A DNA stretch of 64,000 bases from Hymenobacter cellulosilyticus. GTDB taxonomy: Bacteria; Bacteroidota; Bacteroidia; Cytophagales; Hymenobacteraceae. Where the stretch lies: positions 868,001 to 932,000 of the forward strand of contig NZ_CP095046.1 of assembly GCF_022919215.1 (NCBI RefSeq), given 5' to 3'. Position numbers and translations under genes: made by a program. The notes under the pieces are model-generated. The model worked only from the letters and a program-made list of their open reading frames with translations, ran no database searches and was not told where the DNA came from. Of this stretch, positions 26,435 through 40,491 are shown piece by piece (within the stretch, counting starts at the first letter, position 1; each line of letters opens with the position of its first letter).

Positions 26435-28162
26435 CTACTGCGGCCCTTCCATCGTTTCGAAAGGCGTGGCCACTTCCACATTAGGGGTTTTAGGGAAAGC
26501 CAGAAAGTGCGTCACCCGGGGCGGCTCCGGGCCCGTATGCAGCTGCCGCACCTGGGCTTCCAGGGCCTGATCTTCCCGGGTAAAGCGGTGGTGTTGCCGC
26601 TGGTGCTCACCCCAGGTAGCTACGTGAAAAAATTCCGTAATGCGCGTCGGGTCGGCGATATCCGAAAACACCCCGGCCCGCAACGAACCATCCCGCAGCC
26701 GCAGGCGGGTAAGACGAGCCACTGCTTGCCGGAAAGCGGGCTGGTCCGCAGCAGCTACGTGGTACTCAATCATGACTACCACCGGTCCGTCATCGGGGTC
26801 GATGGTGCCCTGCACCGCCGGATCGGGCCAGTGCTCAGCGGGCGCCAGGTCCAGCCCTTCGGCCGAGCGCATGGGAAAGGGAATAGCCAGCAGCATGCTT
26901 ACCAGCATCCAGACTGCAGTAGCCAGCAAGGCCGTTTCCAATGAGGCCCGGTCAGCCAGCTCGCCCCACACAATACTGCCCAGCGAAAGTCCCGCCTGAA
27001 AGACCAGCATATAGATGCTTACCACCCGGGCCTGCACCCACTTGGGCACGTGCAGCTGGACCGTCGTACTAAAGCTGGTCATGACCATAAGCCAGGCAAT
27101 TCCCGACAGAAACATAACCGGATACAGCCAATACACTACCGTTACCAGGGCCAAGCACACATTGGTACCAACAAATACCAGGGTCCCGAGCAGCACCCGC
27201 TGGTTAAAGTTGAGCTTATTTCCGGCTCGGCCCATCAGCAAGGCGCCCGTAATAGCGCCGGCTCCCAGCCAAGACAGCATCACCCCGTAAGCACCTGAGC
27301 TCAGGCCCAGCTTGCGGGCTATAACCACCGAGAGCAGCCCCCACATGGCGCTGGCGCCAAATGAAAAGGCAAACGTGCGAAACAGCACAGCATAGATGGC
27401 CGGCGAATACTGCACGTAGCGCAGGCCGGCCCGCAGCGCGCCGGTAAAATTTTCGGCGGGGCCGCTGCTGGCCTCCTCCGTGCGCTGCCACGAAAAAATG
27501 ACGGCGTACGTGCCTAAGAACGACAGCCCATTCACCAAAAACACCCAGCCCGGCGAGTAATAGGCAATGATGAGTCCGCCGATGGCCGGGCCGATGGCGC
27601 GGGCAATGTTATTACTGACGCCATTCAGGGTAATAGCAAACGGCAGTACCGGGCGGGGTACGAGCTCCGTCGTCACGGTTTGCCACACCGGCGCGTTCAA
27701 CGCCGCCCCGATTCCCAGTAAAAAAGTAAACGCCAGGACACCCAGAGCCGAAACTTCGCCCAGGAGCGTAAGAGCCCCTAGCGCGAAGGCGACAATGGCC
27801 ATAAATCCCTGCGTGAGCAGCAAGAGCCTGCGCCGGTCAATTAAGTCGCCCAGGGCCCCGGCGGGCATGCTCAGCAAAAAGGCAGGCAGGCTGTTGGCGG
27901 TTTGCATCAGGGCTACTACCAAAGCCGAGGTAGTCAGCGTCGTGACTAGCCACACCCCGGCCACGTTTTGCATCCAGGTGCCAATGTTCGACACGACTGA
28001 TGCAATCCAGATGGCCCGGAACAGCGCGTATTGAAACGGCGTCCCGAGCGTAGCCTTGCCGTTGGCGGGGAAGGAGAACTCATAGAAGGCAAAACTAAAA
28101 ACTACCACAGCACTACGCCGCAACCGCATCTGGCACTTGCGCCTCCCGGTCCGGTAAAACAA
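26435..28162 (-). CDS. MFS transporter (EntS-like) with C-terminal ABM-like domain
   Basis: The product is up to 575 residues. Residues about 50-430 form twelve membrane helices of the MFS_3/EntS-like exporter type, with VSNIGTWMQNVAGVWLVTTL at the first helix, GDLIDRRRLLLL between helices 2 and 3, and a mid-loop before the second half. The last 110 residues are soluble and look like an antibiotic-biosynthesis-monooxygenase-type dimeric alpha-beta barrel (VVMIEYHVAAADQPAF, ITEFFHVATWGEHQRQHHRF). The combination occurs in some bacterial exporters. The true start may be at an inner Met (28129), because the first 40 residues are atypical. Substrate unknown. Confidence 0.82.
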   Translation of the reverse strand: MFYRTGRRKCQMRLRRSAVVVFSFAFYEFSFPANGKATLGTPFQYALFRAIWIASVVSNIGTWMQNVAGVWLVTTLTTSALVVALMQTANSLPAFLLSMPAGALGDLIDRRRLLLLTQGFMAIVAFALGALTLLGEVSALGVLAFTFLLGIGAALNAPVWQTVTTELVPRPVLPFAITLNGVSNNIARAIGPAIGGLIIAYYSPGWVFLVNGLSFLGTYAVIFSWQRTEEASSGPAENFTGALRAGLRYVQYSPAIYAVLFRTFAFSFGASAMWGLLSVVIARKLGLSSGAYGVMLSWLGAGAITGALLMGRAGNKLNFNQRVLLGTLVFVGTNVCLALVTVVYWLYPVMFLSGIAWLMVMTSFSTTVQLHVPKWVQARVVSIYMLVFQAGLSLGSIVWGELADRASLETALLATAVWMLVSMLLAIPFPMRSAEGLDLAPAEHWPDPAVQGTIDPDDGPVVVMIEYHVAAADQPAFRQAVARLTRLRLRDGSLRAGVFSDIADPTRITEFFHVATWGEHQRQHHRFTREDQALEAQVRQLHTGPEPPRVTHFLAFPKTPNVEVATPFETMEGPQ

Positions 28163-28198
28163 TCAGCCGCACCTCCCTCACGAGAGAAGTGCGGCTGA
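28163..28198. terminator. hairpin between MFS and small basic protein genes
   Basis: TCAGCCGCAC (28163-28172) pairs with GTGCGGCTGA (28189-28198). It sits just after the stop at 28219 of the minus-strand gene at 28219-28500 and may end it. There is no long T run. Confidence 0.5.
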
Positions 28199-28218
28199 AT
28201 ACCGGGAAGCGGATCCGG

Positions 28219-28500
28219 TTACTGGTTCCGCGTTGGAGGATCTACAGTAATAACGCCTTTGCGCACTGGGGCAGCCTGCTGCTTCCGTTTTGCTTTGCGC
28301 CGAGCGGCCCACCGTCTGAAGAAGCCGGGCTTGCGGTGCTTTTTGCGGCCTTTATACCGTTTGTAGTTCGGACGCGGAATCGGGCGGCCATCCACGGTTA
28401 GCTCCGTAGCGGCAGCACTGGTTTCCGATTCGGCCATGGCTGATCCTGGTTCCCCCAGGCATAGCACCGCGCAAAGCAGTAAGAGCAGTAGTTTGTACAT
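28219..28500 (-). CDS. small secreted basic protein, paralogue of the one at 29454
   Basis: The 93-residue product has a signal peptide (MYKLLLLLLCAVLCLGEPGS, AMAE) and a strongly basic mature part with RPNYKRYKGRKKHRKPGFFR and WAARRKAKRKQQ. The 29454 gene encodes a similar protein: same signal, a PRPNYKxYxG block and FRRWAxRRKAxRK. The pattern suggests a family of short exported proteins that bind acidic polymers such as LPS, DNA or polysaccharide. That function is only a guess. Confidence 0.6.
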   Translation of the reverse strand: MYKLLLLLLCAVLCLGEPGSAMAESETSAAATELTVDGRPIPRPNYKRYKGRKKHRKPGFFRRWAARRKAKRKQQAAPVRKGVITVDPPTRNQ

Positions 28501-28714
28501 AACGCTGAAGAAAAGGTGGACTTTACGCTTCGCACAAACAACCTGAACAGCAGAGGTTTACCGTTCACTAACTTTGCCGGGCGAATTTTCCATTTTCTCC
28601 TAGCTAATACTATACCAGGATGAAAATGGTGTTTTATCAAACGCAAAAAAGTTCACCTTGGATTCAGCTTCCTGCAATCTTCCTGCTGGGCCTACCTACA
28701 ATTCCCCACTTTTT

Positions 28715-29116
28715 CTAGAAAGGGTCGAAACAGCTATAGTTGCGCTGCTTGATGATAAGGCCATCCTTCAGTTCGAAGACTACGCAGAACTGGGCAGCCA
28801 GCTGCTGGCCCCGGACTAGCGGCCCAATATCATTGGCCAGCGTGGCTTGCCAGTGAGCCTCAATCACCACACTTCCATCCGGGCACTGCTGCATCTGCTG
28901 TAATTCGAAAAGGGGATTTACCAGTAGCTCACGCCCGGCCCGAATATTTTCCAGAATCTCGGCAAAGGAACGGCGCTGCAGGGTCCGGTTCAGCATATTC
29001 GGAAACTCTACCTGCTCCACATCCGGATGCAATACTGTCGCATAAGCTGCCGGGTCTATCTCCAGAGATTCACTTAGTTTCAAAAATTTGGTAATGGTTT
29101 GCAATTGTTCAGCCAT
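28715..29116 (-). CDS. NTF2/SnoaL-like protein, paralogue of the one at 21073
   Basis: The 133-residue product carries DPAAYATVLHPDVEQVEFPN, TLQRRSFAEILENIRAGREL and QFCVVFELKDGLIIKQRNYS, matching the 21073 protein block for block. It lies between the two small basic secreted-protein genes. The N-terminal helix differs (MAEQLQTITKFLKLSESLEI), so the copies diverged mainly there. Likely a small cone-shaped binding or isomerase-type protein; ligand unknown. Confidence 0.7.
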   Translation of the reverse strand: MAEQLQTITKFLKLSESLEIDPAAYATVLHPDVEQVEFPNMLNRTLQRRSFAEILENIRAGRELLVNPLFELQQMQQCPDGSVVIEAHWQATLANDIGPLVRGQQLAAQFCVVFELKDGLIIKQRNYSCFDPF

Positions 29117-29453
29117 AGGAGTGGGAAGACAGAGGTAGTATGGAGCCTCAAGATAGAGGATGATGAACGTTCAAGGCTACTACAGCTACAACAGGCTCAG
29201 TGTTACAGCTAGTATATAATTTTAAAAATATAATCCTATGTTTCTCCTCTTGCCACTCGGCGTTGGGCACTCTCTAACGGGCTTGTTGTCCTCAACTATG
29301 TATAACCCAAAGGCATATCTGTTTTAGAAGACGTGAGCCGTTATTCCTGGGGTTGGCTACGGCCATGACCCCGTTATAAAGTCAGAGCAGTTTACCCGGC
29401 CCTTTTCGGACTCGGATAAACTGCTCCGTATGCTGTGCTTAAGTAGACTGGAC
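29117..29453. other. gene-free gap with one hairpin
   Basis: 337 bases between the minus-strand genes at 28715 and 29454. It has an AT-rich core around 29205-29245 and an inverted repeat GAGCAGTTTA (29385-29394) with TAAACTGCTC (29417-29426) that could end transcription of the gene at 29454. No open frame of interest. Confidence 0.6.
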
Positions 29454-29738
29454 CTATTTGTTGCGCATGGGCTTATCGACTTTCACCGATGGTATTGCCT
29501 TGCGCTTACGCTTACGCATTGCCTTGCGGCGCAAGGCCCACCGCCGGAATACGCCAAGCTTTTTAGCCCGGTGGCGGCTATTGCCCCGGTAAGGCTTGTA
29601 GTTTGGGCGGGGAGTGTTGGTTTCTGCTATTTCGGTTTTTTCAACCGAATAGTCAGCGGTGGTTGCCTGTACCGCCTGGGGCTCCAGAAGCGTAAACAAG
29701 GCACACAGGAGAATGAGTATTGTTTTGTACATAGCCAA
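29454..29738 (-). CDS. small secreted basic protein, paralogue of the one at 28219
   Basis: The 94-residue product has a signal peptide (MYKTILILLCALFTLLEPQA, with an alternative start two residues upstream), then NTPRPNYKPYRGNSRHRAKK and FRRWALRRKAMRKRKRK. The parallel to the protein at 28219 is clear in both signal and basic block, while the linker differs. The upstream region (29745-29900) is very AT-rich for this genome and probably holds its promoter. Function unknown; the high Arg/Lys content suggests binding to acidic polymers. Confidence 0.6.
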   Translation of the reverse strand: MAMYKTILILLCALFTLLEPQAVQATTADYSVEKTEIAETNTPRPNYKPYRGNSRHRAKKLGVFRRWALRRKAMRKRKRKAIPSVKVDKPMRNK

Positions 29739-30177
29739 GATTTAAATGTTGTTAGATCAGTTCCACCATCCCAATACATTACCTTAATCCTAAACTTCAG
29801 GTGTAAGGCGCTTCTAAATTAAGAACACTACGACAAAATATCCTAATTCATTTTAGCAAATATTTGTAATCCAGCTTAAACACAAATTGTTCTTTTCCAA
29901 GTCTACAAACCTCTCTATCGGCAAACTTTGCGTGGTCGGCACCCTGCTCTCCTACCGGCACTCTGTCGTTGCCGGGTCTGGCTGCGGCGCTGATGAAACC
30001 TTAGGGAATTAGACAAGAACTTCACGGGCATTTCGGGTATTCTTAAATACTTATCGGACCGAGCTGATTTCGACTTGCCAGGACGCACAACGGCCCGTTG
30101 CTGGCGAGCAGCAACGGGCCGTTAGACGGGGCTCTGGGTGAGGTGGCGGGACTCGACCGGACCGCTCGGGCTAGAAG
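29739..30177. other. AT-rich gene-free gap ending in a strong hairpin
   Basis: 439 bases without a credible gene. The first 160 bases are AT-rich. At 30089-30123 AACGGCCCGTTGCTG pairs perfectly with CAGCAACGGGCCGTT around GCGAG, 55 bases past the stop of the DAHP synthase gene. It probably marks the 3' end of the aromatic operon, although no T run follows. Confidence 0.6.
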
Positions 30178-31247
30178 TTAGCCTTCCATCACCTTGTTCT
30201 GGTGGTTGATGGACTCCAGGTGAACGGCGGCGAAGTACTGCTCGATAAACTCCGGGGTAAGGCCCACGGATGAACCCTGGCGCTGGGCCCGCTCCAGTAC
30301 CTCGTTCCAGCGGCTGGTTTGCAGAATGGTGATGTCGTTTTCCTTTTTGTAGACCCCGATTTTCTCGGCCACAGCCATGCGGCGACCTAGGAGCTGGATG
30401 ATTTCGGCGTCGAGCTGGTTGATTTGCTCGCGCAGGCTGGACAAGGCCGTCAGAAACTCGCGCTGGTTGGTGGTTTCGTGGCGCCACACCAGGTCCGTGA
30501 TGAGGTCCTTGAGCACCTCGGGGTAATCTGCTGCTTGGCGTCGCTCCAGGCGTGGTCGGGGTCGATGTGGCTTTCAATCATGTTGCCGTCGAAGCCCAGG
30601 TTCAGGGCCTGCTGGGCCACGGCCGATAAGGTGTCGCGGCGGCCGCAGATGTGGCTGGGGTCGCAGAGCAAGGGCATTTCGGGGTGGCGGCGCTTCATCT
30701 CGATGGGCAGGTGCCACATCGGGGCGTTGCGGAAGTCGGTGTTGCCGTAAGAGCTGAAGCCCCGGTGAATCAGCCCCACTTGGCTTAGGCCGGCCTTCTG
30801 CAGGCGTTCCACGGCGCCTACCCACAGCTCCAGCTCGGGGTGAATCGGGTTCTTGACCAGCACCGGCACCTGCACCCCGCGCAGCACGTTGGCAATTTCC
30901 TGCACCGAGAAGGGGTTGCCGGTGGTGCGGGCGCCCACCCACAGAATATCGACGCCGAAAGCCAGGCAGTCTTCCACGTGCTTAGCGGTGGCCACTTCCA
31001 CGGCAATGGGCAGGCCGGTCAGCTCACTGGCTTTCTTGAGCCAGGGCAAACCCTTGGTGCCCACGCCTTCGAAGCCGCCGGGCTTGGTGCGGGGTTTCCA
31101 GATGCCGGCGCGCAGGGCCTGCACCTTGCCGGTAGCGGCCAGGCGCTGGCAGGTTTCTAGAACTTGCTCCTCGGTTTCGGCTGAGCAAGGCCCGGAAATC
31201 AGGTAAGGCTTATCGTCGGGCTGGCGGTTGAAAAGTGCGGATTGCAT
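30178..31247 (-). CDS. bifunctional DAHP synthase / chorismate mutase; frame break near 30522
   Basis: The enzyme makes 3-deoxy-D-arabino-heptulosonate 7-phosphate, the first step of the shikimate pathway, and its chorismate mutase domain makes prephenate. The corrected 356-residue product starts MQSALFNRQPDDKPYLISGP and holds the DAHP synthase blocks AGIWKPRTKPGGFEGVG, LWVGARTTGNPFSVQ and CDPSHICGRRDTL. It ends in a chorismate mutase domain (last about 90 residues, SLREQINQLDAEIIQLLGRR). The frame breaks at the junction; one extra base in the GGGG run 30520-30523 gives QITPEVLKDLITDLVWRHET. Last gene of the operon pheA, aminotransferase, tyrA, this gene. ATG 31247 chosen by family start. Confidence 0.92.
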
Positions 31248-31302
31248 GATATGTTGGGTTTGAGTTTTGCGGGGAGTTGAGAAATGGTAGAAGAAGTCGT
31301 CT

Positions 31303-31398
31303 GTCATGTCGAGCCTTCGCGAGGCATTTCGCGTGCTGAGGTTGCAATGGCATTGATTAGCACTGCACGCGAGATGTCTCGCCAAGGCTCGACATGAC
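31303..31398. repeat. intergenic palindromic element, family copy 3
   Basis: GTCATGTCGAGCC at the left pairs with GGCTCGACATGAC at the right. Inside, GCATTTCGCGTGC and GCACGCGAGATGTC are also inverted. It lies between tyrA and the DAHP synthase gene, so it is inside the operon transcript. A close relative is at 33484-33579. Confidence 0.75.
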
Positions 31399-31416
31399 GT
31401 TCTATCCAGGTTGTTC

Positions 31417-32262
31417 TTACTTCAGAATCTTCTTGATCAGATTGGCTTGCTCGATTTGCTGGTAGACGGCGGGGTAGTCTTCCTGGGAAATGAGGTGGCG
31501 CAGGTGCTGCAACTGTTTGATATGCTCGTCGAGCACGTCGAGGACGTTGACGCGGTTTTGGCGGAAGATGGGCACCCACATATCCGGTGAGCTTTTAGCC
31601 AGGCGCACCGTGGAAGCAAAACCGCCGCTGGCCAAGGCAAAAATCTGCTGCTCCTCTTTTTCCTTTTCCAGCACCGTGAGGGCCAGGGCAAAGGAGGTAA
31701 TGTGCGAAATGTGCGACACGTAGGCCGTGTGCAGGTCGTGGGCAGCGGCGTCGAGGTATTCGATGCGCATCCGGAGCTGCTCGAAGAGGTGCTGCACCTG
31801 GTTCACCGCGTCGGCGTCGCTCTGTTCGGCGTCGCAGATAACCAGGGTTTTGTCGGTAAACAGCTCGGGCACGGCGGCTTCGGGGCCCGAGTACTCGGTG
31901 CCGGCCATGGGATGCACGGCCACGAAGCGGCCCCGACGCGGGTGCCCGGCTACGGCCGCCAGCAGCATCGATTTGGTAGAGCCCACGTCGATGACCACCT
32001 GCTGGTCGACTTCGTCCAGCACCTGGGGCAGCACGGTGAGCATGGCGTCCATGGGCACGGCCACCACCACCAGGTCGGAGCGGCGCACGGCGGCGGGCAG
32101 GTCGGTGGTGCCTTCGTCGATGAGGCTTAGCTCCTGGGCTTTGCCAAGGTTTTCCGGGCTGTGGTCTACTCCTATAATATGCTCAGCCAGTCCGTGGGCT
32201 TTCAGGCTGATAGCCAGCGAGCCGCCAATAAGCCCCAGGCCGATTACAGTGACAGTTTTCAT
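31417..32262 (-). CDS. tyrA: prephenate dehydrogenase
   Basis: TyrA oxidises prephenate to 4-hydroxyphenylpyruvate for tyrosine. The 281-residue protein has an N-terminal nucleotide-binding motif, VTVIGLGLIGGSLAISLK, then VAVPMDAMLTVLPQVLDEVD, the VHPMAGTEYSGPEAA block with the catalytic His, and HTAYVSHISHITSFALAL in the helical dimerisation domain. It overlaps the aminotransferase gene by 4 bases (ATGA), so the two are translationally coupled. No ACT domain is present. Confidence 0.93.
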   Translation of the reverse strand: MKTVTVIGLGLIGGSLAISLKAHGLAEHIIGVDHSPENLGKAQELSLIDEGTTDLPAAVRRSDLVVVAVPMDAMLTVLPQVLDEVDQQVVIDVGSTKSMLLAAVAGHPRRGRFVAVHPMAGTEYSGPEAAVPELFTDKTLVICDAEQSDADAVNQVQHLFEQLRMRIEYLDAAAHDLHTAYVSHISHITSFALALTVLEKEKEEQQIFALASGGFASTVRLAKSSPDMWVPIFRQNRVNVLDVLDEHIKQLQHLRHLISQEDYPAVYQQIEQANLIKKILK

Positions 32263-33452
32263 ACGGTCGGGGTGGTAAAAGAAGGTTGTTGCCGGGCCGC
32301 CCGGATTCGGCCTAAAGCGGATTCCAGCACGGCCGTCGTCTGGCAGAGGCTCACCCGAATAAAGTTGTTGCCGTTGGAGCCGAAGATGCCGCCGGGCGTG
32401 ATAAACACCTTGGCCGCCTGCAGCAGCTCATCACTCAGCGCGTAGCCATCGGCATGACCGGCCGGAATGGCAGCCCACACGAACAAGCCCACCTGATTCC
32501 GTTCGTAGCGGCAGCCGATGGTGTCGAGCAGTTCAAAGACCAGCTCCCGGCGGGCGGCGTAGTGGGCGTTGAGCTCCTCGTACCAGCTTGCGTCCAGTTG
32601 CAGGGCTTCTACGGCGGCCAGCTGCACCGGTAGGAACATCCCCGAGTCGAGGTTGCTCTTGAAGCGCAGCACTTCTTGGAGCAAATCACCGCGGCCCAGC
32701 AGCATGCCCACGCGCCAGCCCGCCATGTTGTGCGACTTGCTCAGAGAGTTCAGCTCCAATACTACTTGCCGGGCTCCCGGCACAGCTAATAGACTTTGAG
32801 CCGGCTCCTGGTTCAGGATGAAGCTGTAGGGGTTGTCGTGCACCAGTAGGATGTTGTGCTCGGTAGCAAAGGCCACCAGCCGGGCGAAGAACGCCGCGTT
32901 GGGCGGGGTACCGGTTGGCATGTGCGGGTAGTTAACCCACATGAGCTTTACCCGGCTTAGGTCGCGTTGAGCCAGGGCAGCCAGGTCGGGCAGCCAGCTG
33001 TTTTCGGCCTGCAGGTCGTAGTCCACGGGCGTGGCGCCGGCCAAGTGAGCGGCGGCGCGGTAGGCCGGGTAGCCGGGATTGGGAATCAGCACTTCGTCGC
33101 CGGCTTCGAGAAAGGTCATGCTCACGTGGATGATGCCTTCCTTGGAGCCCAGCAGCGGCAATACTTCCGTTTCGGGGTCCAGGGTCACGCTGTAGCTCTG
33201 CTTGTACCACCTGGCCATGGCCTGGCGCAGGGCCGGCACGCCTTTGTAGTTCTGGTAGGCATGGGTAGTGGGCTGCTCGGCGGCCTGGGTCAGGGCGGCA
33301 ATTACGCGCGGATGGGGCGGCATGTCGGGGCTACCAATACCGAGGTTTATAACCTGGGCACCGGCCTTGTTCATGGCGTCGATTTCGCGCAGCTTCCGGG
33401 AGAAGTAGTACTCCTGGGTGTGCTGAAGGCGGCTGGCTACGGAGACTTGCAT
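32259..33452 (-). CDS. class I/II aminotransferase of the aromatic operon
   Basis: The 397-residue PLP enzyme of fold type I contains NLGIGSPDMPPHPRV at the start, YPAYRAAAHLAGATPVDYDL, the Asn and Tyr residues of DNPYSFI, and the Schiff-base Lys in LNSLSKSHNMAGWRVGM. It probably transaminates phenylpyruvate and hydroxyphenylpyruvate, as expected from its place between pheA and tyrA. Relatives include aspartate and LL-diaminopimelate aminotransferases, so specificity is an inference from context. The stop overlaps the tyrA start. Confidence 0.88.
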   Translation of the reverse strand: MQVSVASRLQHTQEYYFSRKLREIDAMNKAGAQVINLGIGSPDMPPHPRVIAALTQAAEQPTTHAYQNYKGVPALRQAMARWYKQSYSVTLDPETEVLPLLGSKEGIIHVSMTFLEAGDEVLIPNPGYPAYRAAAHLAGATPVDYDLQAENSWLPDLAALAQRDLSRVKLMWVNYPHMPTGTPPNAAFFARLVAFATEHNILLVHDNPYSFILNQEPAQSLLAVPGARQVVLELNSLSKSHNMAGWRVGMLLGRGDLLQEVLRFKSNLDSGMFLPVQLAAVEALQLDASWYEELNAHYAARRELVFELLDTIGCRYERNQVGLFVWAAIPAGHADGYALSDELLQAAKVFITPGGIFGSNGNNFIRVSLCQTTAVLESALGRIRAARQQPSFTTPTV

Positions 33453-33483
33453 GGGTTATGATCTAGAATATTCGTTTCGGGCT

Positions 33484-33579
33484 GTCATTCCGAGCCCCGC
33501 GAGGAATCTCGCGTGCTGATGTTAGGTCGGTAATTTGAATACTGTGGCACGCGAGATGTCTCGCGGGGCTCGACATGAC
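33484..33579. repeat. intergenic palindromic element, family copy 4
   Basis: GTCATTCCGAGCCCCGCGAG at the left matches CTCGCGGGGCTCGACATGAC at the right with few mismatches. Same subfamily as 31303-31398. It lies between pheA and the aminotransferase gene. Confidence 0.75.
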
Positions 33580-33594
33580 GTTCTGAAGTATGAA

Positions 33595-34428
33595 CTACTT
33601 ATGCGTGGTGCCTTTGTGGTACACGCCCAGCACTTCGAGGCCTTCCGTTACTGGCTTCATGCTGTGCAGGGCGGCGTCCAGTTGGGCCGAGTCATCAAAT
33701 TCGAGGTCGGCGTGGAAGTAGTAGTGCCAGGTTTTGGCCGGAATCGGGAAGGACTGCAGCTTGGAGAGGTTGATGCCCTGGTCGGCAATGCGGATGAGCA
33801 CCTGGGCCAGGCTGCCCTGGGCGTGGGTGGTGTGGAAGTAGAGCGAAGCCTTATTGGGCGCCTCCACGGCGGCGGCATTTTCGGGCCGGTCCACTACCAG
33901 AAAGCGGGTGTAGTTCTTCTTTTCGGAGTGAATGTCCTTGGCCAGAATTTCCAGGTCGAACAGCTCGGCGGCTAACTTGCCAGCTACGGCGGCGGTACCG
34001 GTGCGCAGGCCTTCCCGGATGCGCTGGGCGCTCAGGGCCGTATCCTCGGTTTCGACCAGCCGCCAGGGGCCGTGCTGATTGAGAAAGTCGGCGCACTGCA
34101 GCAAAGCCATGGGGTGGGAGTGCACCTCCCGGATATCATCGAGCTGCTGTCCGGGCAGGGCCATCAGATGCTGTCGGATCTGCAGGTACACTTCCCCCGT
34201 GACGCGCAGACCGGCCTGGCGGAGCAGGTTGTAGTTGGGCAAGATGCTGCCGGCAATGGAGTTTTCAATAGCCATCAGGCCGTGCCCGGCCGTGCCGCTG
34301 CTCACCTGCCGCACCACCTCCCCAAACGTGGCGCAGGGCGTAGTCAAGGCAGCGGGACCGAAGTAGTGGCGGGCGGCAATCTGGTGAAAACTACCTTCAA
34401 AGCCCTGGATGGCGACGGTTGGGAGCAT
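33595..34428 (-). CDS. pheA: prephenate dehydratase
   Basis: PheA converts prephenate to phenylpyruvate for phenylalanine. The 277-residue monofunctional enzyme opens VAIQGFEGSFHQIAARHYFG, includes LMAIENSIAGSILPNYNLLR and the catalytic Thr-Arg-Phe in NYTRFLVVDR, and ends with an ACT-type regulatory domain (SLAQVLIRIADQGINLSKLQ). In this domain the usual ESRP Phe-binding motif reads LQSFPI. The first gene of the operon, preceded by the two predicted attenuators at 34455-34745. The ATG at 34428 is near the end of the second terminator. Confidence 0.93.
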   Translation of the reverse strand: MLPTVAIQGFEGSFHQIAARHYFGPAALTTPCATFGEVVRQVSSGTAGHGLMAIENSIAGSILPNYNLLRQAGLRVTGEVYLQIRQHLMALPGQQLDDIREVHSHPMALLQCADFLNQHGPWRLVETEDTALSAQRIREGLRTGTAAVAGKLAAELFDLEILAKDIHSEKKNYTRFLVVDRPENAAAVEAPNKASLYFHTTHAQGSLAQVLIRIADQGINLSKLQSFPIPAKTWHYYFHADLEFDDSAQLDAALHSMKPVTEGLEVLGVYHKGTTHK

Positions 34429-34454
34429 GATGCGAGGTACTTGGGAAAAGACAT

Positions 34455-34483
34455 AAAAAAAAGGCCTCCGGAGTGCGGGGCCT
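34455..34483 (-). terminator. attenuator terminator 2 in the pheA leader
   Basis: On the minus strand AGGCC (34479-34483) pairs with GGCCT (34462-34466), followed by eight Us (34455-34462), just before pheA. The 5' arm, GGCCCCGC (34475-34482), is also complementary to GCGGGGCC (34528-34535) inside leader 2, which would form a competing antiterminator. The terminator stem itself is short. Confidence 0.65.
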
Positions 34484-34510
34484 GGGTTTTGCTTTGGTGC
34501 TGCGCTTCGG

Positions 34511-34591
34511 TCAGCTTCGGCAAACGGGGCCCCGCTTCTTCGTAAAGAAGAAGTAGGTATAGCCGTAATAAAAGAAGACTGAAGCAGGCAT
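34511..34591 (-). CDS. Phe/Tyr-rich leader peptide 2 (attenuator)
   Basis: A 26-codon open frame reads MPASVFFYYGYTYFFFTKKR then GPVCRS and stop. Nine of 26 residues are Phe or Tyr, seven of them within ten codons. It lies between terminator 1 and terminator 2, 83 bases before pheA. Its AAG-CGG-GGC-CCC codons carry the sequence able to pair with terminator 2, the classic layout in which a ribosome stalled at Phe/Tyr codons decides the RNA fold. Translation is not proven. Confidence 0.7.
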   Translation of the reverse strand: MPASVFFYYGYTYFFFTKKRGPVCRS

Positions 34592-34610
34592 GTGAGGCAA
34601 AAAGTAAGCG

Positions 34611-34646
34611 TAAAAAAAGCGCCTCCCGAGGTTGTCGAGAGGCGCT
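34611..34646 (-). terminator. attenuator terminator 1 in the pheA leader
   Basis: On the minus strand AGCGCCTCTCGA pairs with TCGGGAGGCGCT (12 pairs, one G-U) around CAACC, then seven Us (34612-34618). Strong intrinsic terminator 165 bases before pheA. Its 5' arm includes CTCGAC, complementary to GTCGAG overlapping the stop codon of leader 1. Confidence 0.85.
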
Positions 34647-34685
34647 GAGAGTTTCGGTTAGAAAAGCTACAGGAGGGCCGCTCGA

Positions 34686-34745
34686 CTACGCGTGGGCGTA
34701 GTAGAAGTAATAGCTAAAAAAGAAACGGCCGGTGTGCTGAGACAT
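34686..34745 (-). CDS. Phe/Tyr-rich leader peptide 1 (attenuator)
   Basis: A 19-codon frame reads MSQHTGRFFFSYYFYYAHA and stop. Eight residues are Phe or Tyr, packed in a ten-codon block. It begins 50 bases after a promoter-like -7 box and is followed by intrinsic terminator 1. Such a run of codons for the end products of the operon is the mark of ribosome-mediated attenuation, as in the Escherichia coli pheA leader. The sequence just after the block (GTCGAG, 34681-34686) can pair with the terminator arm. Confidence 0.8.
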   Translation of the reverse strand: MSQHTGRFFFSYYFYYAHA

Positions 34746-34794
34746 GAGAATCAGGTGCTTTGCGAGGGCAAGGTGGGACCAGGTTCTGGCAATT

Positions 34795-34827
34795 CCAAAT
34801 TAAATTTTGCGGCTTATTACGAACAAA
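34795..34827 (-). promoter_or_regulatory. promoter of the aromatic operon
   Basis: Minus-strand TAATTTGG (34795-34802) resembles the -7 box TAnnTTTG and lies 21 bases downstream of TTTG (34824-34827). Transcription would start about 40 bases before leader 1. The -7 match is one base short of perfect. Confidence 0.5.
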
Positions 34828-34906
34828 CGTTCGGTAGCCCTTCAGGAAACAGGCGCCTGGACTAGTAATTCCTCAGCGCTTCAACTACCAGATTATCCGC
34901 GCATTA

Positions 34907-36525
34907 CTAGCGGCGCCACTCCTCGTTGGGCAGTGCTTGGGCGGCTTCACTGCTAAGCTCAGCGGCCCGCTGTACTAGCTCCACAAATTCGCGGCGGGAG
35001 CCGTCGGCATCCCGGCCACGCACCGACTGCGCCCGGCCCAGCGCCGCTCTGTAGCTGGCCTGGCCCCGGTGCTCCGACTGCCGCAGCAGCAACCCAAACT
35101 CAGCCACGGCTACGGCCAACCGGAAGTTGTCAGAGGCTTGCTCGATGGCGGTGCTACTGTTGCGCACGGGCAGCGTGAGCAGGTGGCTGGCGCTGCCCTG
35201 GGGCTCCTGGTAGCGCAGCTTCACGGTCAGCAACTCGGCGCTGGCAGGAGAGACAATGCCGTAGTCCGCCGGGCCCGCTTGGTACTTCAGCGGGTCGACG
35301 CGGGGTCGGACGTTGGCGGGCACGATTTCGTAGAGGGCCGTCACCTGCTGACCCGCGCCCAGCTCCCCGGCGTCCTTGGTGTCGTCGTTGAAGTCCTCGG
35401 CGGCCAGTAGCCGGTTTTCGTAGCCGAGTAGGCGGTATTGCTGCACCTCGGCGGGGTTAAACTCCACCTGCACCTTTACATCCTTAGCCAGGGTAAACAG
35501 GGTGCCGCCAAACTGCTGCACAAGCACCCGCCGGGCCTCGTTGAGGTTGTCGATGTAGGCGTAATTGCCGTTGCCCTTGTCGGCCAGCAACTCCATCTTG
35601 CTGTCCTGCAGGTTGCCTTCCCCGAAACCCAGCACCGACAAAAACACACCCGACTGCCGCTCTTCGGTAATGAGCTCCTCCATGGCGGCATCCGAGCTTT
35701 CCCCCACGTTGAAGTCACCGTCGGTAGCCAGGATGATGCGGGTGTTGTAGCCGGGCCGGGCTTGCTGCCGGGCCACCTGATAGGCCAGGCGCAGGCCCTC
35801 CCCGCCCGCCGTAGAGCCACCAGCCTCCAGGTTCTCCAGAGCCGCCATAATCTCCCGGGGCCGGCTGCCCGGCGTGGGCGGCAGCACCAAGCCCGCCGCA
35901 CCGGCATACACCACAATAGAAACGTAGTCCTGGGGTCGGAGCCGGGGCAGCAGCTCGCGCAGGCTGGCCTTGAGCAACGGCAGCTTGTCAGCGTCACTCA
36001 TCGAGCCCGACACGTCGAGCAGGAATACTAGGTTGGCCGGCGGCAGCTCGGTGTGGGCTACCTCCCGCCCCTGCACACCCACCAGCACCAATTGGTGCGC
36101 GGGGTTCCAGGGGCAGCGGGCCACTTCTGCTTGCAGCGCGGCCGGCTCATCGGGGCGCAGGGGCTGGGGATAGTCGTAGTGGAAGTAGTTGACGAGTTCC
36201 TCCAGGCGCACCGCTTCGGGCGGGGGCAGCTGACGGTTTTGGGTCAGGAAGCGGCGCACATTGCTATACGAGGCCGGGTCCACGTCGATGGCAAAGGTGC
36301 TTAGCGGAGCCTGCCGCACGGTTTCGAATGGGTTTTCCGGGAGCCGGGCGTAGGATTCGGTATTCGGGGCCGGGGCGGCGGAGCGGCTTCAGCGTAGTCG
36401 GCCGCCGGGGGCATTTCGTAGGTGGAAGCTGCCTCCAGGGGCTCAGAGTAGCGTTGTTGTTGGCAGGCGGGCAGCAGCAAGCCGCTCGCCAGCAGCCACA
36501 GGGGCCGCAAGCGGGATATAGGCAT
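34907..36525 (-). CDS. von Willebrand factor A lipoprotein (YfbK-like); frame break near 36370
   Basis: The corrected 539-residue protein has a lipoprotein signal (LLASGLLLPAC), a short linker, an N-terminal domain with STFAIDVDPASYSNVRRFLT, a VWA domain with the metal-binding DVSGSMSDADKLPLLK, and a C-terminal helical domain (the DUF3520 part of YfbK-like proteins). Frame one ends after RPRIPNPTPG; one extra base in 36366-36369 or 36372-36375 gives APNTESYARLPENPFETVRQ and joins the long frame. VWA proteins bind partners via a Mg site. The leader region of pheA lies just downstream, so the two genes share a strand but not an operon. Confidence 0.85.
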
Positions 36526-37108
36526 TGAAGTAAGGGCTAGTGGAAAGAAAAGACTACCGAAAAAGCCATGCTTCCACCGCTGAACTCACGAAACTGAATT
36601 CAGAACTTTTCCAGGAAAAGAAGCGCGTGACCAGAAACATCCGTCGCGAGCGGAAGGTCCTGAAGACGGGGCGAAGAGGCTCTGTACGCAGAGCTGCGTA
36701 TTCGGAAAATGCTGCGAAAGCGGCGCCGCTTAGTGATTCTTTATACCGACAGGTCTGCATACGTAACCCAGCGGCCCGTGACTTTTTTCCAACATAATTC
36801 GGGCATCCCTGTAGACTGATAATTGTATAATAAAAAGCACGACTGCGTCGTTTGGGCCGGCTCAAACGAAAAACTCCTGACCAGTCGCCCACCGGTCAGG
36901 AGTTTCTTCGAGTTGGTTTGTGAGCGGGAAAGCGGTGACCCGCCAAACCAGTCCGCGCAAGGTGGCGCCCTGCAGGCCGGGGCCCGGCCGCGGCTGTGCC
37001 CGGGCCACTTGCTTCCATTCGGCAGCAGGCGCGCGGCCCAGACGGTGATTCTATCGGCGGCCAGTGTCCGCCGCCGATGGGAAATGAGAAGAGTAGCGCT
37101 TCTCATGG
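36526..37108. other. gene-free gap with a terminator-like hairpin
   Basis: 583 bases with no frame I trust. AAACTCCTGACC (36871-36882) pairs with GGTCAGGAGTTT (36894-36905), a good terminator for minus- or plus-strand traffic. A second small repeat, GAGAAG...CTTCTC, is near 37084-37104. The short frame at 36540-36797 has poor codon use and no homology that I recognise. Confidence 0.55.
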
Positions 37109-37899
37109 CTAATAGTCGCGCCGAACGGCATACAGAATTCGCCTCGGAATGCTGCTCACCCGCTGCCACACGCCTTGTGGGGTGTAAATCGGCGCATACC
37201 AAACCAGCCCGCCCTTGACATCCACGTCCAACGCTACGAGTAGGCCTTGGGCCTTAACCTTGGTGGGCTGCGGAAGCTCCTGGCTGACGTAGCCAATGGT
37301 CTGAAAAAGCAGGGGCAGCTTCCGCTCCTCTTGGCTCACGCGCAGAGAGAAATACCCATCAGGATCAGTAGCGGTGCCGCGGATTGTGCCTTTCAAGACG
37401 ACCCCGATTCCAGGCAGCCCTTCGTTGGTTGACTTGTCTATTACCCGCCCGGTAACAACCGTTGAATCAGCGGAAGTAGGGACTGTTACCGCTACTCCTT
37501 CAAAGTTTCCCTTCACCTGCCCCGCTGGCTCAGAAGCAAGGCGGCTGGCCCGGGCAGATGCTGCTCTACTTGCTGGGCCCACCCGGCAGCCGGGGCTAGA
37601 GTCCGTAGCCCCAGCAGGGCCACCGTGGCCGCTACGGCCGTTTGCCACCACGCGGCCCGGGGTGGGGCTGGTAGTTGCAGCGGCCGGTTCAGTTGGCTGG
37701 CGCCAAACCGTCCACAGGTTTGCTTGCCGCCCACCGCCGCCCGGAGCACAGCCAGAATTTCGGCGTCGGTTTTCTGAGTGAAGTCAATAACTACTTTCTC
37801 GCAGGCGGCGCAGCGGCGGCCGGGGCCCTGGGGCGTCATAGCGGCCCACGACTGGGAGCAGGGCTCAGCAATACGACGGGAAACAGCAGAGGTGTGCAT
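37109..37899 (-). CDS. carboxypeptidase-like regulatory domain protein; frame break near 37550
   Basis: The corrected 263-residue protein begins MHTSAVSRRIAEPCSQSWAA with a Cys-containing block, CAACEKVVIDFTQKTDAEIL, of a type common in Hymenobacter. After a membrane helix (WWQTAVAATVALLGLRTL) comes a carboxypeptidase-regulatory-like/DUF4480-type fold, VTGRVIDKSTNEGLPGIGVV. Frame one stops with LPGPAALLLS; adding a C to the run 37549-37551 (G on the coding strand) gives HLPGASRLASEPAGQVKG. Beta-sandwich surface or periplasmic protein of unknown role. Confidence 0.65.
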
Positions 37900-38645
37900 A
37901 CTGGCGGCAGTAGTAGGAGCAGAAACTTGGGATGGAAGTAGCGGAGAGGCTATCAGGCTTAGGCACCAGGGCCCAGCGAAGTGCTCATCGGGGCCGGTGG
38001 GCTGGAGCAGTCGTAGGGCGAAGTAGTCGGGCAGAACGGGCCGGTAAGGGGCTGGCTCAGGGCGGGAAGGTGCCGAAACGTTGAATACAGCTGCTGCAAC
38101 AGGTGTACTCCGTTGGTCTTTACGTTTCCGCATCCTCCCCGCCGAAGCCTTGTGCCGACTGGCTGAGCCGGCTCTTTACCGCTTGGCCCCCGAAGGGCAA
38201 TGCCGGACGCTGCCCTAACGACAACTCTACCCAATTGCGTGTTGCCCGGAGCTTGACGACCAGTGCCTGGGCCCGGTACCCACCTCCGCCGGACCGCCTG
38301 GCTCCGCGAAAGTGCCGCCGGCGTGGCCTGTCCCGCTAGGCTAAGGAGACTATAATCGTCCGAAGAGTTGCTTGCCTCCCCTTTATTTGGGCCTTTCAGC
38401 CGAAAGTCAGGGCTCGGCGGGAAGGTCTGCCGGAGGAGGGCTGGCCGGCGGCTTGGCTCCGGGAGGACGGGCTTGCGCATACAATCAGACGAAGGTGAGA
38501 AGATCAGTTTCACCTATTCTGATGCGGCCCGACACCGGATTCCACACCGGGCGCAGAAAAATTCTGGAGCCGTTTGGATTCCTTTATCTTGCTGACTACT
38601 ATAGCTGAGCGCCGAATCGTGGCGGCTCGGTCTTATTCGTTAGCT
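37900..38645. other. gene-free gap
   Basis: 746 bases between the carboxypeptidase-like gene (transcribed leftward) and the lipoprotein at 38646. The open frames here (for example 37959-38513 minus) have Arg/Pro/Ser-rich products, no signal and no known domain, so I see nothing I can support except promoters for the two divergent genes. Confidence 0.5.
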
Positions 38646-39191
38646 ATGCCTTTTCGCCGAGTCTTTTCCGCGCCCCTGCTCCTAGCCATCCTACCGCTGC
38701 TGCAATGCAAGTCGGACGTGACCGGCCCCGAAAGCCAGCTGCCGCCTGCCACCCAGAACGGGGCCAATACCTTTGGCTGTCTGGTCAATGGCCGGCCTTG
38801 GACGCCGCGAGGCAATACCGGTACCAGCAACTATGCCGTGCTCTATTAACCTGGGCCAAATGGAGCCACGTTAAACATTCGAACCTACCAGGTGCATGGT
38901 AACGACCGTCAGTATATAAATCTTAGTTGTGGCCCAATAACGCAAGCACGTGAATTCGCCCTGACTATTCCCGTGACAGAAGGGGCCGGCTCCTATGTAA
39001 ATACTTCAATTCCTTTTCCTTGTAATAGTTATGACGGAAATCAACTCCCGGATTACCGCCGCGGCAGCTTAACTATTACCCGCCTGGACCTTACCGCCGG
39101 CATTATTTCCGGCACCTTTTCCTTTACCCTCTACAAACCCGGCTGCGACACTATTCGCGTCACCAACGGCCGCTTCGACAAGCAGCTCTAG
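38646..39191 (+). pseudogene. DUF6252-like lipoprotein with in-frame stop
   Basis: The frame 38646-39191 (182 codons) starts MPFRRVFSAPLLLAILPLLQ with a lipobox Cys and runs SQLPPATQNGANTFGCLVNG and NYAVLY. It then meets TAA at 38847-38849 and continues in the same frame PGPNGATLNIRTYQVHGNDR to GCDTIRVTNGRFDKQL. The tandem paralogue at 39202 has GAA (Glu) at this point (VIYEPDF), so one G-to-T change is enough. Unlike the other broken genes this is a substitution, not a homopolymer loss, and may be a true null allele. Confidence 0.75.
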
Positions 39192-39201
39192 TTCTATAGC
39201 T

Positions 39202-39737
39202 ATGAGAAATTCACTTCTACTCGTAGCACTGTTGGGCCTAATCCAGTGCAAGAAGAAAGACCCCTCCCCGAAAGCCAGCTGCCACCCGCGACTCAAACCG
39301 GGGCCAATACCTTCGGGTGTCTGGTAAACGGACAGGTCTATTTACCCAGTGGCAATGCCGGTATCAGCAACTATACCGTAATCTACGAACCGGATTTTCT
39401 GGGAGGCAGCCTCCAAATTGTGACCTACCGGTATCCTGAGCCCAAAGGTGGGAAAACGCAAGAAGTGTCATTGGGCGGGATAAATATCGACCACGTTGGT
39501 ACCTACAAGGTAGGTTTGAATAGTGAAGTGGGCGTTTCTTTCATTGATGACTACAAGATGCGCCCTTGTAATGAATATAGAAACGACCAAGCAGCCGTCT
39601 ACTCCCGCGGTACTGTATTTATAAGCCGCCTGGACCTGAGCGCTGGTATTATCTCTGGCACATTTGAATTCACCTTGGCCCAGCCCGGCTGCGACACGAT
39701 TAGAGTGACCAAGGGCCGCTTCGATAAGAAACCCTGA
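39202..39737 (+). CDS. DUF6252-like lipoprotein, paralogue of 38646; frame break near 39263
   Basis: The corrected 178-residue product starts MRNSLLLVALLGLIQCKKKD, with a lipobox Cys. The body has GANTFGCLVNGQVYLPSGN, the IVTYRYPEPKGG strand and the ending ISGTFEFTLAQPGCDTIRVT. The frame is restored by one C in 39261-39264, giving KKKDPLPESQLPPAT. It lies 10 bases after the upstream paralogue, so the two form a tandem duplication. Likely an outer-membrane-anchored beta-sandwich of unknown role. Confidence 0.75.
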
Positions 39738-39873
39738 CCCTGTTGGGCTTTATTCGCCAATCCGGAAGCCAGCGCCGCCCCGGAAGCCAGGAGCCACTCA
39801 AACCTGCACCAAGCGCCCAACAACGAGCCCGATGCCGTATCTTGGGCCCAGGTCCGTGGGGCCGCGCTGTCCT

Positions 39874-40491
39874 ATGTTTTTCAAACGTCGCCCGAAGTCG
39901 CCCACCGAGCTGTCCGATGAGGAGCTGCTCACGCGCTACCGCCTCGAAGGCGCCGTGGCCGACCTGGGCGTGCTCTACGAGCGACACATGCCCCTGGTGT
40001 TTGCCGTGTGCCGCAAGTACCTGCGGCCCGACGAAGACGCCCAGGACGCGGTGATGCAGCTCTTCGAGAAGCTGCTCGACACGCTGCGGCGGCACGAAGT
40101 GAGCAACTTCCCGGCCTGGCTCCAGACGACGGCCCGCAACCACTGCCTGATGATCCTCCGGGCCCGGCAGCGGGCCGGCCCCGACGGTGCCCTGGTCCTG
40201 CATTTTCCCGACGCGGCCGATATGGAATCCTCCGGAGTTCTGCATCAGGCAGGTGATGCAACTGAAGATCAAGAACTCACCGAGGCCCGCCTGCAGGCTC
40301 TGGAGCACGCCCTGGCCGATTTGCCGGAGGCACAGCGCCGCTGTCTGGAGCTGTTTTACCTCGAAAAGAAATGCTACCGCGACATTGCCGACCTCACCGG
40401 CTTTGACCTCGGCCTGGTGAAAAGCCACCTCCAAAACGGCAAGCGCAACCTCAAACGTTACCTCGACTCAGCTCCCAATGCGGCCCGCTAA
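39874..40491 (+). CDS. ECF-type RNA polymerase sigma factor
   Basis: The 205-residue protein has sigma region 2 (LGVLYERHMPLVFAVCRKYL, DAQDAVMQLFEKLL) and region 4 (LPEAQRRCLELFYLEKKCYR, DIADLTGFDLGLVKSHLQNG). It is an extracytoplasmic-function sigma-70 relative. It overlaps the next gene by 14 bases, which encodes its probable anti-sigma partner, so the pair is coupled and likely autoregulated. ATG 39874 is chosen because an upstream extension adds only junk. Confidence 0.9.
   Translation: MFFKRRPKSPTELSDEELLTRYRLEGAVADLGVLYERHMPLVFAVCRKYLRPDEDAQDAVMQLFEKLLDTLRRHEVSNFPAWLQTTARNHCLMILRARQRAGPDGALVLHFPDAADMESSGVLHQAGDATEDQELTEARLQALEHALADLPEAQRRCLELFYLEKKCYRDIADLTGFDLGLVKSHLQNGKRNLKRYLDSAPNAAR

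Follow-up and report, generated by a model that had tools for sequence, protein, structure and literature searches.

Two Phe/Tyr-rich leader peptides, each followed by an intrinsic terminator, suggest serial attenuation upstream of pheA

Leader-peptide attenuation is a textbook mechanism, and single amino-acid attenuators are its standard examples. In E. coli pheL and in attenuators of the trp and his type, a short ORF rich in codons for the product of the operon, an antiterminator and an intrinsic terminator precede the first gene, and the locus described here is built from the same parts. It differs from pheL, which has one gate, in having two, each with a leader that mixes Phe and Tyr codons upstream of an operon making both amino acids. 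Serial sensors before biosynthetic genes are familiar from tandem T-boxes and tandem riboswitches, but these sense their signal directly through the RNA, whereas here the sensor would be a translating ribosome. One tandem example, metE of B. clausii, is mentioned in a study of the Salmonella mgtCBR leader (PMC3641672), which itself carries two leader ORFs, described as “tandem attenuators”, that respond to ATP and to proline (PMC3641672). The mgtCBR signals are different and, as the comparison with metE in that source presents it, the leader is without two intrinsic terminators (PMC3641672). Here, in contrast, both gates appear to answer to the same signal and each has a terminator of its own.

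Other described systems share one half of the arrangement. In the rimP leader two terminators stand in tandem, and a potential antiterminator accompanies the first of them (PMC2965389); it resembles this locus in its two serial terminators, although the passage on rimP mentions no leader peptide (PMC2965389). Two leader peptides precede a single gene in ermB, as here, but they are reported to act in erythromycin-induced translational attenuation (PMC8274638). Within the Bacteroidota, the transcriptome of Flavobacterium psychrophilum revealed a structured element ahead of pheA, and flavobacterial amino-acid operons were reported to show strong clues for leader-peptide attenuation (PMC9723704). 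That element belongs to the same phylum and the same gene, and the passages on it describe no tandem (PMC9723704). Leader-peptide-like small ORFs have also been reported in Bacteroides (PMC7366714). Among the matches listed by a search of open-access full text, judged by title and start of abstract and with subscription papers mostly outside its reach, none was a tandem same-signal amino-acid leader-peptide pair. Leader-peptide attenuation itself being known, what appears to be new here is the doubling of a same-signal attenuator.

The window (the whole 64-kb stretch of DNA that was analysed) carries the locus on its minus strand, along which a promoter-like signature, leader 1, terminator 1, leader 2, terminator 2 and pheA, which begins at 34428, follow in that order:

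34768..34799, minus strand: promoter-like signature, with a −33 element TTTG (34799-34796), a 20-base spacer and a −7 element CACCTTGC (34775-34768)
34745-34686, minus strand: leader peptide 1, MSQHTGRFFFSYYFYYAHA, 19 aa from the ATG at 34745 to a TAG stop, with eight Phe/Tyr
34677..34686, minus strand: antiterminator strand 1, GTCGAGCGGC, whose first base is the last base of the leader 1 stop codon
34612..34646, minus strand: intrinsic terminator 1, a 12-pair stem-loop (34646-34618, −21.5 kcal/mol) followed by T6
34634..34643, minus strand: partner of antiterminator strand 1, GCCTCTCGAC, within the 5′ arm of terminator 1
34591-34511, minus strand: leader peptide 2, MPASVFFYYGYTYFFFTKKRGPVCRS, 26 aa from the ATG at 34591 to a TGA stop, with nine Phe/Tyr
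34528..34535, minus strand: antiterminator strand 2, GCGGGGCC, within the leader 2 reading frame
34455..34483, minus strand: intrinsic terminator 2, a stem-loop (34483-34462, −11.8 kcal/mol) followed by T7
34475..34482, minus strand: GGCCCCGC, the segment of the terminator 2 5′ arm that can pair with antiterminator strand 2
33595..34428, minus strand: pheA, prephenate dehydratase (NCBIfam PRK11899, 2.8e-60, 204 bits, below the curated cut-off of 359)
32259..33452, minus strand: PLP-dependent aminotransferase resembling LL-DAP aminotransferases (its best families score under their curated cut-offs)
31417..32262, minus strand: tyrA, prephenate dehydrogenase (NCBIfam PRK08507, 354.5 bits, exceeding the cut-off of 295)
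30178..31247, minus strand: DAHP synthase with chorismate mutase after it, the two lying in separate frames in the assembly

Both leaders are short ORFs with many Phe and Tyr codons, ahead of an operon that makes these two amino acids, and two intrinsic terminators lie between leader and first gene. The original prediction had placed the two leaders at these coordinates, with their eight and nine Phe/Tyr, and a terminator after each, which the stems at 34646-34618 (T6) and 34483-34462 (T7) confirm; terminator 2 was absent from the output of a simple terminator scanner. The pairings that it proposed are likewise in place, both that of GCGGGGCC (34535-34528) with GGCCCCGC (34482-34475) and that of GTCGAG (34686-34681) with CTCGAC (34639-34634), the latter having been understated, since 9 of the 10 positions of GTCGAGCGGC (34686-34677) and GCCTCTCGAC (34643-34634) can pair. 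On both strands of the 64-kb window, leaders 1 and 2 are the only ATG-initiated ORFs of at most 40 aa with at least seven Phe/Tyr in 10 residues; among 5000 dinucleotide shuffles of the 372-base region, one contained a single ORF of this kind and none contained two. Three more TWY-rich sites in the genome were rejected as background, the pattern giving four matches, leader 1 included, versus five for a reversed-pattern control.

The reading that we favour, with a probability of roughly 0.83 on sequence comparison and folding models, is that the aromatic operon is governed by two serial transcription attenuators, both complete and ribosome-mediated, each sensing both Phe and Tyr. Serial attenuation had been proposed in the original prediction and is supported by leader conservation, codon constraint, co-changing strands and predicted switching in many relatives. 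By usual ribosome footprint figures, strand 1 would be covered when a ribosome sits at the stop codon and would stay free when it stalls on the aromatic codons. Start site, translation, ribosome stalling, kinetics and the product rule are all inferred in the scheme that follows. RNA polymerase would start near 34761 and transcribe leader 1, on whose TWY codons the ribosome would stall when Phe-tRNA or Tyr-tRNA is scarce; terminator 1 would then lose its 5′ arm to strand 1, letting transcription go on. With both tRNAs plentiful, a ribosome at the stop codon would cover strand 1 and terminator 1 would end the transcript. A polymerase that passed the first gate would meet a second of like design, where a ribosome that had newly initiated on leader 2 would do the reading. 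With independent gates, the two pass probabilities would multiply to give the output, so that leak would fall and logarithmic sensitivities would add.

The leaders are constrained at the codons that would do the sensing. All eight aromatic columns of leader 1 keep T at codon position 1 (heterozygosity 0.00-0.18 among 74 distinct rows), and the codons stay TWY, with mostly T or A at position 2, which exchanges Phe and Tyr, and T or C at position 3; the flanking codons are more variable. Leader 2 shows the same TWY pattern in its final three aromatic columns (position 1 heterozygosity 0.00-0.05 among 77 distinct rows), and the constraint is weaker at the earlier columns (mostly 0.24-0.56 at position 1), where some of the variation comes from rows of unequal length having been anchored at their ends. 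Selection for a pyrimidine tract would not be expected to favour A at codon position 2. The aromatic codons, whose conservation in relatives the original prediction had named as a point on which it could fall, are thus conserved. The last aromatic codon of leader 1 lies three (62/80 loci) or four (18/80) codons from the end, and in leader 2 ten codons separate it from the stop in 64 of 80 loci.

Over 80 loci (L104 left out), Phe and Tyr codons stand at 295:305 in leader 1 and 370:321 in leader 2, and such balance means that each gate probably senses both amino acids; it also argues against a pair with different signals as in mgtCBR. A specialisation of the gates, one mainly for Tyr and the other mainly for Phe, in a combined two-input logic, is suggested by the final aromatic codons in the window (Tyr-Tyr for leader 1, Phe-Phe-Phe for leader 2) and by the last aromatic residue of leader 1, which is Tyr in 64 of 80 loci. 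We nevertheless consider it unlikely, because the last aromatic residue varies in leader 2 (42 Tyr, 35 Phe and 3 Trp among 80 loci), Phe and Tyr interchange at many columns, codon use is balanced overall, and the folding models predict opening at both Phe and Tyr in 31/80 loci for module 1 and 45/80 for module 2. Two gates, according to the original prediction, might sharpen or combine the response; by codon use they do not appear to divide Phe and Tyr between them.

Comparison of relatives supports both antiterminators. For module 1, an uninterrupted helix of at least six pairs forms between a locus's own strand and arm in 83 of 107 loci, versus 18% of 2140 shuffled strands, when the 13 bases from the stop codon are set against the 5′ half of the terminator and pairing is scored free of any pattern. 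The two strand types change together with the arm: loci with TCGAG/TCGGG have C[C/T]CGA in the arm of terminator 1 in 42/42 cases and CTCGT in 0, and loci with AACGAG have CTCGT in 46/46 and C[C/T]CGA in 0, so that strand type and arm type agree in all 88 loci of the two main types among the 107, a covariation that supports an antiterminator exclusive with terminator 1. The longest own helix averages 6.50, which 0/5000 permutations reach, versus 5.54 with the arms of other loci; even so, 50% of the cross pairs also attain a helix of six because relatives share both sides.

Individual pairs of module 1 were counted in a hand-set register for 84 loci (23 of the 107 rows were left out), the MAFFT alignment A1 having been rejected for this purpose since, from one main type to the other, it put the antiterminator strand two columns out of place. 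Of the 84 loci, 82-84 have positions 0 and 2-6 paired, partly by construction, as the patterns that set the register fix several core letters; it was on account of this partial circularity that the pattern-free helix count was added. Both partners change together at three positions: position 2 is T-A in 37 loci and A-T in 45, position 5 is A-T in 78 and G-C in 4, and position 7 is C-G in 29, T-A in 17 and unpaired in 38, while position 8 is paired in only 29/84. One A-T pair is co-inserted: of the 46 rows having the position, 45 carry it in strand and arm alike. On the tree, pair states at positions 1, 2, 5 and 7 require at least 3, 4, 3 and 10 changes, respectively, and the number of independent double changes is therefore small. 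Duplex energies point the same way in both modules (own −16.7 versus cross-species −12.6 over 75 distinct rows for module 1; −16.1 versus −14.7 over 80 rows for module 2), and own pairing exceeded cross-species pairing in both modules and in the single loci, with 0/5000 permutations each, kinship being ignored in this comparison. Against the terminator of the other module the strands fit less well on average (−10.8 and −11.0). Against shuffled strands, z fell below −2 in 58/81 loci for module 1 and in 25/81 for module 2, where the evidence is weaker.

RNA folding with the ribosome placed along the leader (RNA freed 12 bases past the start of the A-site codon in the window folds and 13 bases in the genus-wide folds) predicts a switch for module 2 of the window, in which Pterm is 0.00-0.27 at all nine aromatic stalls and 0.97 at the stop codon. 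This on/off pattern resembles that of E. coli pheL, which as a control gave 0.00-0.14 at the first five Phe stalls, failed at the last two, and gave 0.96 at the stop. Module 1 of the window folds as a terminator at equilibrium (0.97-0.98 at all eight stalls, 0.95 at the stop), so antitermination there would have to be kinetic, as it would in E. coli trp. E. coli trpL is a proven attenuator, and yet in these folds its Pterm is 0.92-0.94 and it fails the equilibrium test; failure to switch is thus no disproof, and equilibrium folding was rejected as a decisive test of switching. With the antiterminator of module 1 held before the 3′ arm emerges, the window sequence folds at −19 to −24 kcal/mol. 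This measure of co-transcriptional capture, however, did not discriminate (module 1, 81/81 versus 75/81 for shuffles; module 2, 80/80 versus 76) and was dropped.

Across the host genus, stalled Pterm is below 0.5 at the best codon in 47/81 loci for module 1 and 52/80 for module 2 (the module 2 folding counts leave out L104), versus 21/240 and 27/240 single shuffles, respectively, which leaves switching unpredicted in 34/81 and 28/80. At the stop codon Pterm exceeds 0.8 in 78/81 and 79/80 loci, and the ribosome-free medians are 0.96 and 0.91 for modules 1 and 2. Loci with a single module fall below 0.5 when stalled in 19/23 cases in the host genus and 23/33 in other genera. The tandem loci of genus g3 gave 0/9 switching at equilibrium in either module, and in a wider survey of other families 13 of 35 modules fell below 0.5 and 22 did not, L190 switching in both of its modules and L207 in neither.

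The doubled arrangement is widespread among close relatives. pheA was found in 107 of 120 host-genus genomes; the 13 others, 11 of them reported as 99-100% complete, gave no pheA match at E <= 0.001, perhaps through loss of the pathway or divergence of the enzyme. Both modules occur in 81 of 104 host-genus pheA loci and one module in the other 23, the count omitting three of the 107 genomes (G099 and G107, broken at contig ends, and G114, a fragment, L150). An automatic module finder had returned 77 tandem and 27 single loci; hand corrections added terminator 1 of L054, L055 and L060, which have an interrupted U tract, and leader 2 of L104, set the leader of L111, removed an extra ORF in L006 and L030, and reduced L146 to one module. 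That most of the genus relatives examined keep the pair suggests that a doubled switch is useful. In the neighbouring genus g5 all 3 of the analysed loci are tandem (a fourth genome, G136, has a partial match only and is outside this count). Another 42 loci, from genera elsewhere in the family, divide into 33 single and 9 tandem, the latter forming one long-branch clade of g3; outside the host genus, 45 of at least 61 matching genomes of the family were analysed. In other families, 60 loci, hand-picked and mostly best-scoring from 111 and 57 genomes with matches, comprised 30 single, 2 tandem and 28 without a recognised module. The two tandems, L190 and L207, come from two other families of the class and have Phe/Tyr leader–terminator pairs in series before pheA; these may perhaps have arisen independently. 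The finder's call of L204 as a third tandem in the survey was rejected, its first “module” being judged spurious.

On a quick LG+G4 tree of pheA proteins (149 rows; low support on 48 of 145 inner branches), no fewer than seven changes are required to explain the tandem/single state. Tandem looks ancestral in the clade formed by the host genus (g1) and g5, whose deepest branches are tandem. The single loci of this clade fall in two places, six within an 11-row clade and 17 within a 23-row clade, and five tandem loci (L052, L053, L059, L066 and L067) nest among the 17, a pattern that repeated loss, regain or a misplaced branch would all fit; the number of tandem origins is uncertain. Six single loci (L036, L038, L042, L044, L045 and L048) have a leader 1 shifted after its aromatic run and ending in ...GSRAAVL or SSRAAVL, so that the ribosome would read through the antiterminator strand to a later stop. 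In L104 the leader 2 stop codon is lost and the frame runs through terminator 2, on which the ribosome would then sit.

The same comparisons bear on whether only one module regulates, the other being a relic or a constitutive partial terminator. The absence of an equilibrium switch in module 1 of the window and the occurrence of a single module in 23/104 genus loci and 33/42 loci of other genera fit such an account. Each of the 23 single genus loci, however, has one leader with its terminator, and by inspection of both the retained module resembles module 1 in both clades; the module in doubt is therefore the one kept, and it also has the stronger co-change. Leader 2, for its part, keeps a frame ending before its terminator in every tandem locus but L104 (80 of 81). 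Regulation by one module alone is accordingly improbable, somewhat more so than specialised gates, and two working attenuators remain the preferred reading.

Terminated leader RNAs or peptides might instead act in trans, with attenuation secondary, and a trans-acting trp leader peptide has been reported in Sinorhizobium (PMC7298713). Two short RNAs would arise from this locus, and an Rfam model of the suhB/mmgR sRNA matches over terminator 1 (34604-34685, minus strand), but with 30.4 bits against a cut-off of 41 this match may reflect a GC-rich terminator only, and probably does no more than record terminator shape. Rfam gave no match at gathering in window positions 28000-40000, and four sub-threshold matches within 34400-34900. 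Moreover, peptide ends vary across relatives, whereas the aromatic codons and the RNA pairs are what is conserved, and a primary role in trans is very unlikely.

Above leader 1, an alignment of 107 upstream sequences from the host genus and g5 shows a conserved promoter-like signature, TTG-N20-YANNTTKS, from which transcription would be expected to start near 34761. A promoter had been predicted at 34795-34827; going by the signature it should be placed instead at 34799-34768, some 27 bases downstream, and the predicted interval overlaps the −33 element by its downstream end. Conservation drops above the signature in the 75 bases examined. A sigma-70 scan found 0 sites, and a strict TAnnTTTG scan of 84 loci found a site above leader 1 in 25 and missed it there in 59; neither the stretch between the modules nor that following leader 2 gave any. 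A second promoter has little room, since only 26 bases separate the terminator 1 stem from leader 2. A same-strand VWA-domain gene ends upstream of the leader region, at 34907, and the idea that terminator 1 belongs to this gene, leaving module 2 as the only leader, can be set aside as highly improbable given the genus-conserved signature in between, the loss of conservation above it, and the position of leader 1 between promoter and terminator 1.

Attenuator theory derives sensitivity from the number and fraction of regulatory codons and from timing within one gate, and defines logarithmic sensitivities (PMC1183508). Two naturally paired gates that share their input would offer a direct test of whether pass probabilities multiply and sensitivities add, and relatives with one gate or two before the same gene provide ready-made comparisons. 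The locus also adds comparative evidence for ribosome-mediated attenuation in the Bacteroidota, for which few reports were found. We lean slightly towards a broader proposition, that doubling of the same attenuator is a recurrent design in this phylum, a multiplying double lock with lower leak and a steeper response that would have originated several times and been reduced to a single gate on more than one occasion.

The PLP-dependent aminotransferase (32259..33452) probably supplies the aromatic aminotransferase step, a role suggested by its place in the operon. In the DAHP synthase/chorismate mutase gene the frame changes near 30540-30560 (minus strand), by a run of C, and the best match in 6/6 close relatives lies in an open frame of 371-392 aa; the change may be an error of sequencing or a frameshift that is genuine. 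In the same genome, two chorismate-binding genes (G000:C1:3319197-3319951 and 5048767-5049532) match in overlapping pieces, with two and three match rows, as though frameshifts had broken them; together with a completeness of 95.5% this hints at assembly indel errors. No leucine-type leader scored over threshold at three HMGL-like genes of this genome. Its hisG (L213) is preceded by a candidate His-rich leader ORF and then a candidate terminator, and a chorismate-binding gene (L215) by a candidate Trp-rich (WWW) leader ORF and then a candidate terminator, both of these arrangements being single.
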